Positions 11,002 to 44,879 of a stretch of 64,000 nt of DNA are shown here, piece by piece (position 1 is the stretch's first letter; every line of letters begins with the position of its first letter). Under the pieces are notes generated by a model that saw nothing but the letters and a program-made list of their open reading frames with translations, had not been told where the DNA came from and ran no database searches. The stretch lies in NCBI GenBank assembly GCA_021846275.1, contig JAJZBZ010000001.1, forward strand, positions 62,001 through 126,000, in the 5' to 3' direction. Source of the DNA: Acidobacteriota bacterium (lineage in GTDB: Bacteria > Acidobacteriota > Terriglobia > Terriglobales > Acidobacteriaceae). A program made the translations under genes and the position numbers.

Positions 11002-11532
11002 ATGGCCGGGATGAATCGGAAGTCGCTGAGGATCGGGATTGCCGTGGCGGTGGTGCTGGGAACGATCGGGTATCTGGCGTATACGGGACAGGCCTCGGCG
11101 AAGAGCTATTACGTGACGATTGCCGAGATGCAGAAGATGGGCGCGAAGGCGTACTCGAGCGATCTTCGCGTGGAGGGATTTGTGAAGCCGGATACGATCC
11201 GGCAGGATGGTCCGAATGTGCGGTTTGTGCTGACGGAGTTTGAGAGCCACAATCCGAAGGCGCAGGAGAATCCGAAGCAGATCACGGTGGATTATCGCGG
11301 GTCGGAGCCGCCGCCGGATACGTTCAAGAATGATGCACAGGCGCTGGCGATTGGAACGATGGGCGAGGATGGGGTGTTTCACGCGACGCAGTTGCAGGCC
11401 AAGTGCGCGTCGAAGTATGCGCCGGCAGGGCCACAGCAAAGTGCGGCGGGCGCGAAGATGGCCGCCAATGACGGGCCGGGTGGCGTTGGTGGCAGTGCGG
11501 CGGGCAGCGGGGTGAGCGGCGCAGGCCGCTGA
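11002..11532 (+). CDS. ccmE: Cytochrome c maturation haem chaperone CcmE, CxxxY type
   Basis: A 176-residue membrane-anchored periplasmic haem chaperone. An N-terminal anchor (LRIGIAVAVVLGTIGYLAY) is followed by the OB-fold with LRVEGFV and VRFVLTEFE. The haem-attachment motif is KCASKY, with Cys135 and Tyr139, where classical CcmE has His in HxxxY. Such CxxxY CcmE proteins are known from archaea and some anaerobic bacteria. The tail is Ala/Gly-rich. The start is the ATG at 11002, with AGGAG five bases upstream. It is the first gene of a ccmE-A-ybaK-B-C-D operon; the next gene starts 12 bases after its stop. Confidence 0.9.
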   Translation: MAGMNRKSLRIGIAVAVVLGTIGYLAYTGQASAKSYYVTIAEMQKMGAKAYSSDLRVEGFVKPDTIRQDGPNVRFVLTEFESHNPKAQENPKQITVDYRGSEPPPDTFKNDAQALAIGTMGEDGVFHATQLQAKCASKYAPAGPQQSAAGAKMAANDGPGGVGGSAAGSGVSGAGR

Positions 11533-11544
11533 ACTGACGCGCGG

Positions 11545-12237
11545 ATGAGCGAGACGGCGAGCGAAACGGCGACTGGGCAGGGACAGCGTTCCAGGGAAAC
11601 GGTGGCGCGGCTGGTGGATGTCTCTCGGCTGTTTGGGACGTTTGCGGCGCTGCGGCATATTGATTATGAATTTCAGGCGGGGCTTTGTTACGTGCTGCTG
11701 GGTGAGAATGGCGCGGGCAAATCGACGTTGCTGCGTGTGCTGGCGGGGCTGTTGCCGCCGAGCCATGGACGGGTGAGGATGTTTGGCGATCTGTCACCGG
11801 CTGAGGCGTGCGGACGGATCGGGTATATGAGCCATGCGCCGATGCTCTATGACGAGCTGACGGGTGTGGAGAATCTGGAGTATTTTGCCGCGCTGTATCC
11901 GCGCGGGCTTGCGCTGGCGGCGGACGAGGCGCTGCGGCAGGTGGGACTGGACGCGAAGCTGACGCGCAGGGTGGGACAGTATTCGCAGGGGATGCGGCAG
12001 CGGGCTTCGCTGGCGCGTGTGCTGATGGCGCAGCCGGAGCTGCTGCTGCTGGATGAGCCGTTTTCGAATATGGATGTGGAGTCGGCGCGGCAGATGGTGC
12101 GGCTGCTGGACGGGCTGCGACGGCCGGGACGGACGGTGGTGTTGACGACGCACCAGCGCGAGCTGGCGCTGCCGATTGCCGATTGCGTGCTGACGATGCG
12201 CGGCGGGGAGATTGTGAACGAAGGGAGCGCGGCATGA
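11545..12237 (+). CDS. ccmA: Haem exporter ATP-binding subunit CcmA
   Basis: A 230-residue ABC ATPase that drives release of holo-CcmE from CcmC/CcmD, working with CcmB. Walker A is GENGAGKST at residues 53-61, the signature is YSQGMRQR and Walker B is LLLLDEPFSNMD. Length and the adjacent ccmB, ccmC and ccmE genes support CcmA rather than a generic ATPase. Its TGA overlaps the ATG of the next gene (ATGA), which implies translational coupling. Confidence 0.93.
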   Translation: MSETASETATGQGQRSRETVARLVDVSRLFGTFAALRHIDYEFQAGLCYVLLGENGAGKSTLLRVLAGLLPPSHGRVRMFGDLSPAEACGRIGYMSHAPMLYDELTGVENLEYFAALYPRGLALAADEALRQVGLDAKLTRRVGQYSQGMRQRASLARVLMAQPELLLLDEPFSNMDVESARQMVRLLDGLRRPGRTVVLTTHQRELALPIADCVLTMRGGEIVNEGSAA

Positions 12238-12746
12238 GCGGCGGGAAGACGAATGGCGCGCGGCAACTGGATTCGCTGGGGGTGGGCTATGAGCTGCGCG
12301 AGTACGAGGTCGATCCCGAAGACCTGACGGCGACGACGGTGGCGCGGAAGATCGGACTGCCTGCGGAACAGGTGTTCAAGACGCTGCTGACGACGGATGA
12401 GGCCGGGAGCTATCTGTTTGCGGTGGTTCCGGGGGATCGGGAACTGGACTTCCGGAAGCTGGCGCGGGCGGCGGGATTGCGACGGGTGACGATGGCGGCG
12501 CTGAAGGATGTGCAGCCGCTGACGGGATACGTTCGCGGCGGGGTGACGGTGTTTGGCGCGAAGAAGGCGTATCCGGTGTTTGTGGACGAGACGATGGAGT
12601 TGTTTGAGGTGATCAGCGTTTCGGCGGGAGTGCGCGGGGTGCAGATGCTGCTGAAGCCGGAGGATTATCTGCGCGCGGCTGAGGCGGTGGTGGTGGATTT
12701 GTGCAAGAACGCCGCAGCGGAGCATGGAACGGTGGTTCGGCGATGA
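12234..12746 (+). CDS. ybaK: YbaK-type Cys-tRNA(Pro)/aminoacyl-tRNA deacylase
   Basis: A 170-residue cytosolic trans-editing enzyme of the YbaK/EbsC family, which hydrolyses Cys-tRNA(Pro) made in error by prolyl-tRNA synthetase. Recognisable parts are the KIGLPAEQVFKTLL segment with its lysine, the LFAVVPGDRELDFRKLARAAG core and the final GxRGVQM... region. It starts at the ATG at 12234 inside the ccmA stop and ends in another ATGA overlap with ccmB. It is therefore locked into the middle of the haem operon, although no role in cytochrome maturation is known for this family. Confidence 0.9.
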   Translation: MSGGKTNGARQLDSLGVGYELREYEVDPEDLTATTVARKIGLPAEQVFKTLLTTDEAGSYLFAVVPGDRELDFRKLARAAGLRRVTMAALKDVQPLTGYVRGGVTVFGAKKAYPVFVDETMELFEVISVSAGVRGVQMLLKPEDYLRAAEAVVVDLCKNAAAEHGTVVRR

Positions 12747-13453
12747 CGAGCGTGGCGCAGGAACAGCAGATGGCCGGATGGTTTCGGCTGGTGGGGACGC
12801 ATCTGCGGAAGGATCTGCGGATCGAGTGGCGGTCGCGCGAGGCGATCAACGCGATGCTGTTTTTTGCGCTGCTGGTGGTGGTGCTGTTCAGCATGGCGTT
12901 TGATCCGACGGCGGCGGCCTCGCGGGAGATTGCCGGCGGAGTGTTGTGCGTGGCGACGCTGTTTGCCAGCGTGAGCGCGCTGAATCAGGCGTGGACACGG
13001 GAGATTCGGCACGATGTGCTGGATGCGCTGCGGATGACGCCGGCGGATGGCTCGGCGATGTTTGTGGCGAAGGTGCTGGCGAATTTTCTGTTTGTGAGCG
13101 TGGTGCAGGGGTTGCTGGCGCCGGTGTTTTTCATTTTTTATAACCTGCGTCCGCTGGGGGATGGTTGGCTGCTGCTGGCGGTGGTGCCGCTGGGGACGTG
13201 GGCGCTGGTGGCGAATGGAACGTTCTTTGCGGCGCTGTCGATTCGGAGCCGGAATCGGGAGTTGTTGTTGCCGCTGATTCTGTTTCCGATCTTTCTGCCG
13301 GCGCTGCTGGCGATGGTGCTGGCGGTGAAGACGATTCTGACGGGGGATGGGAGCGATCCGCATCTGTTGTGGCTGAAGATGCTGGCCGGCTATGACGTGA
13401 TCTTCATGACGGTGAGCCTGCTGCTGTTTGACACGGTGCTGCATGCGGAGTGA
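12743..13453 (+). CDS. ccmB: Haem exporter membrane subunit CcmB
   Basis: A 236-residue polytopic membrane protein with about six hydrophobic helices. It begins with the cytosolic LRKDLRIEWRSREAINAMLFFALL segment typical of CcmB and contains LRMTPADGSAMFVAKVLANFLF and RNRELLLPLILFPIFLPAL. It forms the transport core with CcmA, CcmC and CcmD. The start ATG at 12743 overlaps the ybaK stop. A few bases after its stop, an in-frame GTG could restart translation of the next gene. Confidence 0.92.
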   Translation: MTSVAQEQQMAGWFRLVGTHLRKDLRIEWRSREAINAMLFFALLVVVLFSMAFDPTAAASREIAGGVLCVATLFASVSALNQAWTREIRHDVLDALRMTPADGSAMFVAKVLANFLFVSVVQGLLAPVFFIFYNLRPLGDGWLLLAVVPLGTWALVANGTFFAALSIRSRNRELLLPLILFPIFLPALLAMVLAVKTILTGDGSDPHLLWLKMLAGYDVIFMTVSLLLFDTVLHAE

Positions 13454-13500
13454 GCGGGACTAGACTGGGATGTGGCGGGAGTGAGGAAAGAAGGGCGAGG

Positions 13501-14214
13501 ATGGCGATGAAAAAACTGCTTCTGGGAGCGGGTTTTCTGGGCGTGGCGGCGCTGATGGCGTGGGGGTTTGACCAGGCGATGTTTGTGGCTCCGACGGAGG
13601 CCACGATGGGCGATGTGCAGCGGATTTTCTACTATCATGTGCCGAATGCGATGCTGAGCTTTCTGTTTTTTGCGATCAGCTTTGTGGCTTCGGTGCTGTA
13701 TCTGATGTGGCGCAGGAGCGCTCCGGAGCGTGCTCAGACTGCCGACGCGTGGGCGCTGGCCGGAGCCGAGGTGGGGGTGGTCTTCTGCTCGGTGGTGCTG
13801 GTGACGGGTCCGCTGTGGGCGAGGCCTGTGTGGGGGATCTGGTGGACGTGGGACGCGCGGCTGACGACGACGCTGATTCTGTGGCTGATCTATGTGAGCT
13901 ATCTGCTGCTGCGGCGGTTTGCCGAGGGGGCGCAGACGCAGGCGCTGGCGGCGGTGCTGTCGATCTTTGGCGCGCTGGATGTGCCGATTGTGTATATGGC
14001 GAATCGGTGGTGGAGGACGCAGCATCCGGCTCCGGTGTTTGGCGGCGGGCCGGATTCGGGGATCAAGGATCCGGTGATGCTGGCGGCGTTTGGGTGGAAT
14101 CTGCTGGCGTGGGCGGTGTGGGGGCTGATGCTGCTGGGGGTGCGGGTGATGGTGGAGCGGCGGAAGCAGCGGATTGAATTGGCGGCGAGCCAGGCGGCTC
14201 TGGCGGAAAGGTAA
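13501..14214 (+). CDS. ccmC: Haem-handling membrane protein CcmC
   Basis: About 237 residues and six membrane helices. The protein holds the tryptophan-rich periplasmic WWD motif (VWGIWWTWDARLTTTLILW) that cradles haem, plus the two axial-ligand histidines expected in CcmC (YYHVPNAML and RTQHPAP). It loads haem on CcmE. I chose the ATG at 13501 with upstream purine-rich AAGGG/GAGG; 13507 (MKKLLLG) is equally good, and a GTG at 13450 overlapping ccmB is possible. CcmF, which shares the WWD motif, is much longer and is ruled out by length. Confidence 0.93.
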   Translation: MAMKKLLLGAGFLGVAALMAWGFDQAMFVAPTEATMGDVQRIFYYHVPNAMLSFLFFAISFVASVLYLMWRRSAPERAQTADAWALAGAEVGVVFCSVVLVTGPLWARPVWGIWWTWDARLTTTLILWLIYVSYLLLRRFAEGAQTQALAAVLSIFGALDVPIVYMANRWWRTQHPAPVFGGGPDSGIKDPVMLAAFGWNLLAWAVWGLMLLGVRVMVERRKQRIELAASQAALAER

Positions 14215-14220
14215 CGGACG

Positions 14221-14328
14221 ATGGGACACGAGTTTCTGGTTGCGGGATTTACGGCGACGTGGGTGATCCAGCTTGGGTATCTGCTGTGGACTGTGGGGGT
14301 GTGGGTGAGGCAGAGCCGGAAGCTCTGA
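14221..14328 (+). CDS. ccmD: CcmD-like small membrane protein
   Basis: A 35-residue open frame six bases after ccmC: an N-terminal MGHEFLVAGFTATWVIQ, a single hydrophobic helix (LGYLLWTVGVWV) and a basic end (RQSRKL). This is the size, topology and position of CcmD, which sits with CcmA/B/C and helps release holo-CcmE. Sequence conservation in CcmD is low, so the call rests on position, length and topology. A weak purine-rich site (AAAGG) lies upstream. Confidence 0.75.
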   Translation: MGHEFLVAGFTATWVIQLGYLLWTVGVWVRQSRKL

Positions 14329-44312: not shown

Positions 44313-44879
44313 GTGGATCAGGAGCGCGAAACTGAGCGGCGGCAACTGCTCCAATCTCTCGCGGTGCTTGCCGCGGCTCCATATCTGTGGCAAATGCCAC
44401 TGTCAGCCGCCACGCCGCGACTGTTGGCGCAGGCACCGGATTTTTCGCGCCCCGCTGTTGGCAGCCACACGCCGATCCACCTGGCCGGGTTCCGCGGCAG
44501 AGTTGTTTTACTCAACTTCTGGGCTACCTGGTGCGGACCATGCCTGTCGGAGATTCCACGGCTCGTGAACTGGCAAGGCCAGCTTCAATCGAGGGGATTG
44601 CAGGTGATTGGCGCATCGATGGACGATGCGGAATCGCCGGTAACTACCTGGATCCAGCGGTTGCGGATCAATTATCCGATCGTGATGAGTGATCCGAAGC
44701 TGAGTCTGAGCTATGGCGGAGTGCTCGGGTTGCCGATGTCATTTCTGATCGACAGGCAAGGCCGTTTGCGCCGTCGCGTGGAGGGCGTTTTGCATGCTGC
44801 AACCGACTTGCGTGAGATTGAGGAACTGCTGAGTCAGGGCCAGCGCGCCGCGTCATCCGAGCTGAAAAATCGCGCTTAG
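44313..44879 (+). CDS. TlpA-like periplasmic thioredoxin
   Basis: About 188 residues. An ERRQLLQSLAVLAAAPYLW twin-arginine-like or signal-anchor segment is followed by a redoxin domain with LNFWATWCGPCLSEIPRL, in which Cys74 and Cys77 form the redox motif, and the cis-proline LGLPMSFLIDRQGRL. It acts as a thiol-disulphide oxidoreductase outside the cytoplasm. The start is GTG 44313 with ACGGAG five bases upstream; a TTG at 44295 overlapping the rhodanese stop is possible. Its last 4 bases overlap the convergent response-regulator gene. Confidence 0.85.
   Translation: MDQERETERRQLLQSLAVLAAAPYLWQMPLSAATPRLLAQAPDFSRPAVGSHTPIHLAGFRGRVVLLNFWATWCGPCLSEIPRLVNWQGQLQSRGLQVIGASMDDAESPVTTWIQRLRINYPIVMSDPKLSLSYGGVLGLPMSFLIDRQGRLRRRVEGVLHAATDLREIEELLSQGQRAASSELKNRA

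Follow-up and report, generated by a model that had tools for sequence, protein, structure and literature searches.

The window, the whole stretch of 64,000 nucleotides analysed here, contains a group of ccm genes in which ccmE is followed by ccmA, a gene with a tRNA_edit domain, ccmB, ccmC and a 35-residue CcmD-like open reading frame (Table 1). The operon with CcmA, CcmB, CcmC and CcmD described in the initial annotation was recovered, the first three by Pfam and the last as the CcmD-like frame, for which the family search gave no match and which has similar frames at loci L005, L010, L016 and L052. CcmA scored 130.6 bits against TIGR01189 (cut-off 131.6), and CcmC scored 126.6 bits against TIGR01191, under its cut-off; the true start of ccmC may be the ATG at 13501. 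The tRNA_edit gene, which we take to be YbaK-like and for which we know of no role in Ccm, overlaps the 3' end of ccmA; of 31 other loci, some of them incomplete, 16 have such a gene at the same place.

Table 1. Features of the ccmE cluster in the window and of the remote locus of the same genome.
Feature	Location	Strand	Basis
ccmE, haem chaperone, Cys type (System I*), 176 aa	11002..11532	+	Pfam CcmE
N-terminal CcmE helix, residues 6-28, probable membrane anchor	11017..11085	+	AF2 model; anchor role from CcmE topology
Haem site CASKY, Cys135 (putative haem-binding residue) to Tyr139	11404..11418	+	Sequence, alignment, model
ccmA, ABC ATPase of CcmABCD complex	11545..12237	+	ABC_tran; TIGR01189; operon place
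tRNA_edit domain gene between ccmA and ccmB	12234..12746	+	PF04073, 96.1 bits
ccmB, membrane subunit	12743..13453	+	PF03379, 119.5 bits
ccmC, haem-handling membrane protein	13450..14214	+	PF01578, 107.6 bits
ccmD-like 35-aa ORF	14221..14328	+	Read from sequence; similar ORFs elsewhere
ccmF	L019 8262-10334		Remote locus
ccmH	L019 10334-10834		Remote locus
97-aa ORF after ccmH, no family match above cut-off	L019 10831-11124		Remote locus

The product of ccmE matches the Pfam CcmE family over residues 35-141 with 81.1 bits (E 8.2e-23; curated cut-off 24.6 bits). Its translation contains LQAKCASKYAPA, and the haem-site stretch reads QAKCASKYAPA, in which the His/Cys-xxxY motif of CcmE proteins is present as C135ASKY139. 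The initial annotation placed Cys135 at the position of the expected His, and this is confirmed by the translation, by a profile alignment in which Cys135 falls on the His of HDENY in the CcmE chain 8ce8_E, and by the presence of KCASKY in 12 of 12 close relatives (L005-L016). The cysteine is encoded by TGC (11404-11406) here and in all 12 relatives, among which the codons for Ala, Ser, Lys and Tyr differ; thus, the motif is due neither to sequencing error nor to chance. Cys135 and Tyr139 are also invariant across the window CcmE and 13 relatives. A single-sequence search of the PDB with the window CcmE gave no match, but the profile of these 14 sequences retrieved the solved CcmE structures 8ce8_E, 1j6q, 1sr3 and 2kct (E 9.1e-05 to 0.0067). 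The AF2 model consists of one N-terminal helix followed by beta strands, the last of which (125-134) ends just ahead of Cys135, and shows the OB barrel expected of CcmE. Its top four PDB matches are CcmE entries and later ones are other OB folds, with modest TM scores (0.42-0.43 by query, 0.46-0.72 by target) and a modest model confidence (pLDDT 70.3, pTM 0.54). An N-terminal helix serving as membrane anchor is the established topology of CcmE. In the whole genome (3.34 Mb assembly, 13 contigs, 98.64% complete) one CcmE match was found, and the search returned no second CcmE with HxxxY, which the initial annotation had named as refuting its proposal if shown to be the functional one.

It was also claimed that no CcmF, CcmG or CcmH lies nearby, and a genome search for the partner genes was proposed. 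The claim holds locally; genome-wide it does not hold for CcmF and CcmH, which are encoded together with a small third open reading frame about 640 kb from the window genes on the same contig (G000:C5:715553-717780). CcmF matches both Pfam halves (185.9 and 134.5 bits), and the genome has one CcmH match (C5:717424-717780, 74.6 bits). Since both genes are present at another locus of the same genome, CcmH was not lost, and its loss as in other CxxxY systems is ruled out. For CcmG there is no genome match above the DsbE cut-off; the four matches below it are thioredoxin-type proteins with WCGPC or WCAPC sites, the best being a TlpA-like thioredoxin within the window (44493-44798, WCGPC) that is a candidate CcmG. 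The genome also encodes a DsbD-type protein (one DsbD_TM match above cut-off) and cytochrome c domains (15 PF13442 matches, 14 above cut-off). System II was considered and not found, ResB giving 0 matches in the genome. Three proteins match PF01578, namely the window CcmC, the CcmF at C5:715553, which is the only CcmF-like one, and a 282-residue protein at C3:294336 (L020:9114-9962). The genes adjoining the latter are presumably hemA and hemC, and the protein is perhaps HemX-like and not a cytochrome lyase.

The two-locus arrangement is typical of the window's family: ccmF and ccmH are absent from 12 of 12 other ccmE loci (about 6 kb on each side), and ccmF directly adjoins ccmH in 15 of 15 other ccmH loci. 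In families f2, f7, f28 and f37, ccmF comes after ccmE in 7/7 loci, and in two of three f28 loci, as in f2 and f7, ccmE is directly followed by ccmF and ccmH, with ccmH ahead of ccmA. The comparison of these families with that of the window suggests that one cluster was split in the latter. Elsewhere in the phylum CcmF and CcmH are fused in one open frame of 816-975 residues, stop to stop (L171, L084, L093, L161, L162, L105, L102 and L176, from families f15, f24, f29, f46, f50 and f64), and long CcmH-containing frames, read for their CcmH part, occur in Chloroflexota too (L301, L302, L303, L314).

According to Pfam, CcmE is present in 186 and CcmH in 146 of 297 Acidobacteriota genomes (both in 142, CcmH alone in 4, CcmE alone in 44), the 44 being genomes with no Pfam match to CcmH, many of them drafts. 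The 31 genomes of the window's family that match CcmE are also those that match CcmH, the genomes without a match being only partly listed. The CcmE motif was read in 97 of the 186 CcmE-positive genomes, hand-picked across families among the matches listed with the weakest-scoring places left out, and proved to be of the Cys type in 82 and of the His type in 15, the latter confined to families f21, f25, f40 and f47. The Cys form is thus not odd for this lineage. Of 301 Chloroflexota genomes, 207 match CcmE, 157 match CcmH and 153 match both; the regions read there were hand-picked among the matches listed, mostly with ccmE near ccmH, and several are near copies of one another. Some Chloroflexota carry tandem ccmE pairs (L276:3367-4269; L247:9-947), in which KCPSKY stands beside KCPHSY or KCPHRY.

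The CcmE of the window is ordinary for its phylum; less expected is its five-cysteine partner CcmH. The classical LRCxxC is absent from the CcmH of this genome, which reads MMCTCGCNQVLLECNHVGC, with the site CTCGCNQVLLECNHVGC. Both proteins were read in 84 Acidobacteriota genomes (69 with Cys-CcmE, 15 with His-CcmE) and 43 Chloroflexota genomes (34 and 9), the motif classes being assigned by regular expressions and, by eye, for G104 (KCPSKY), G077 (CMCGSPGC) and G289 (RCPVCQ downstream of CDCGC). All 15 Acidobacteriota with His-CcmE have an RCxxCQ CcmH. Of the 69 with Cys-CcmE, 60 have a CxC-type CcmH (C-x-C-x1-4-C..C..C, nearly always with five cysteines), one of them (G017) with an extra YCPVCPN form on a different contig, and nine have only an (A/S)PxC form; the classical RCxxCQ was found in none of these 69, one of two Pfam CcmH matches being left out in each of G008, G010, G019 and G242. 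In Chloroflexota, CxxC-type CcmH accompanies His-CcmE in 9/9 genomes and is the only form in 31 of the 34 with Cys-CcmE, two others having only the five-cysteine form and one having both. The CcmEs of the 31 comprise 27 CxxxF, one CxxxL and three CPT[RK]Y, and six of their CcmHs are CPxC forms with additional cysteines. Over both phyla, a stretch of 26 residues holds five or six cysteines in 69 of 70 CxC-type rows, in which the window genome appears twice; the 76 CxxC rows have two in 68 cases and four in 8, within the first 45 residues. CcmHs with APCC, MSPCC, MSPFC or MSPYC replacing CxxC were also observed (L154, L155, L169, L175, L177, L197, L198), sometimes beside a five-cysteine CcmH in the same genome.

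According to these data it is very likely that CcmE acts here as the periplasmic haem chaperone in a Cys-type System I (System I*), with genes split over two loci and haem passed to CcmF/CcmH. System I* was reportedly first described in 2006, with the absence of CcmH in the title of the description. In the window's organism, CcmABCD would hand haem to the membrane-anchored CcmE, in which Cys135 would bind a haem vinyl by a thioether and Tyr139 would be the likely axial ligand. Holo-CcmE would then pass haem to CcmF with CcmH, which would attach it to CXXCH cytochromes, CcmH having its five-cysteine site instead of RCxxCQ. Excerpts of the 2011 review PMC3601427, which names System I*, gives CPSKY in 25/36 and states that about one third of bacteria with Cys-type CcmE contain CcmH, describe Desulfovibrio CcmE as carrying haem covalently on its Cys and as functional in E. 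coli when both CcmH and CcmG are absent, and in excerpts of PMC9084895 the C120A change in M. acetivorans CcmE left no haem-stained CcmE, C120 being needed for haem attachment. Counted against the System I* assignment are the lack of a CcmG match above cut-off, the modest confidence of the AF2 model and the report, in excerpts of PMC3884852, that D. vulgaris CcmE binds ferric haem non-covalently. These reports together place the window CcmE in an already known Cys type, the CxxxY form described, as the initial annotation stated, from archaea and some anaerobes. A ligation chemistry different from that of E. coli would indeed be expected, as it proposed; it would be the published System I* chemistry.

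Two other accounts of the gene have little probability. One would be a narrower System I* in which CcmH is dispensable, the remote CcmF and CcmH serve one special cytochrome as in an NrfEF-like pair, and CcmE supplies a lyase other than those found. The remote position of the pair would agree with this, as would its best NCBIfam names, CcmF/NrfE and NrfF, both below cut-off, and according to excerpts of PMC3601427 a System I* that lacks CcmH can function. However, the single CcmF-like protein among the PF01578 matches, the single CcmH and the union of ccmE, ccmF and ccmH in one cluster in f2, f7 and most f28 loci make this very unlikely. The other, suggested in the initial annotation, is that the lineage acquired its CxxxY CcmE recently and horizontally, from archaea or anaerobes: CxxxY is common to archaeal CcmEs, and excerpts of PMC9084895 argue that ccm genes were exchanged between Archaea and Bacteria several times. 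In a CcmE tree without archaea (133 rows, 91 columns only, 17 of 130 inner branches starred, with trimming after which at least some rows retained the ligand residue), the window CcmE nevertheless forms a group (support 95) with 16 further Cys-CcmEs of Acidobacteriota, and its five nearest rows are from its own family. Recent exchange is therefore not supported, and with the prevalence of the Cys type among the Acidobacteriota read we regard it as highly improbable. If anything, it is the His type that points outside the phylum, since the Acidobacteriota His-CcmEs (15 genomes, four families) cluster with E. coli and seven of nine from Chloroflexota (94, not starred). The remaining two Chloroflexota rows (L300, HGPTF; L301, HGPEF), with His and without the Tyr, are placed among Cys types and may have acquired the His form independently.

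A general coupling between CcmE ligand and CcmH motif was also considered and rejected: it is exceptionless in the Acidobacteriota read and failed in Chloroflexota, where the 31 CxxC-only genomes indicate that Cys-CcmE can do without a five-cysteine CcmH. The five-cysteine CcmH occurs only with CxxxY CcmE, with no exception among the genomes read, and the three Chloroflexota that have it all have a CPSKY CcmE; this amounts to one independent contrast on supported branches of the tree, where at least 6 would be required, so no significance can be attached to the coupling. A functional link, in which extra thiols or a bound metal would assist in releasing haem from its stable bond to Cys, could account for these three genomes and for the split between CcmH types in Acidobacteriota. 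It appears unlikely, given the Chloroflexota with CxxC-type CcmH only, the 44 of 186 CcmE-bearing Acidobacteriota with no Pfam CcmH match and the single contrast. We tentatively suggest that many Acidobacteriota might possess an undescribed form of System I, with Cys-CcmE and a CcmH in which a conserved C-x-C-x1-4-C-x5-8-C-x1-7-C replaces RCxxCQ and might act through a bound metal or through another thiol relay to release haem from the CcmE cysteine. A literature search, which mostly did not reach subscription journals, found, among the titles listed, no paper on a five-cysteine CcmH or on Cys-CcmE/Ccm across Acidobacteriota.

In the Acidobacteriota genomes read, the haem chaperone is as a rule of the Cys type; the groups named in the review excerpts are archaea, delta-proteobacteria, Chloroflexi and Firmicutes. 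Acidobacteriota offer natural sets, with Cys- or His-CcmE and with five-cysteine, (A/S)PxC, CxxC or no CcmH found, that would allow tests of how the stable Cys-haem bond is broken and of the role of CcmH.

Compared with known systems, the one described here shares a CxxxY CcmE with the CcmABCEF system of M. acetivorans, which according to excerpts of PMC9084895 has no CcmD, CcmH or CcmI and a CcmF divided into two parts. With the classical System I of E. coli it shares the chaperone fold, CcmA/B/C/E/F/H and a DsbD-type protein, but His130 of HDENY is a Cys, CcmH is without RCxxCQ (RCPKCQ in E. coli), no DsbE/CcmG match lies above cut-off and the 97-residue frame follows ccmH. It is closely akin to the System I* of Desulfovibrio and archaea in the Cys replacing the haem-binding His, in a motif near CPSKY, and in CcmABC(D) and CcmF. 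Desulfovibrio has no CcmG, and here the DsbE matches are four, all below cut-off. The present system differs from System I* in having CASKY instead of CPSKY, in the separate loci of ccmEABC and ccmFH, and in the presence of a CcmH, in its five-cysteine form.
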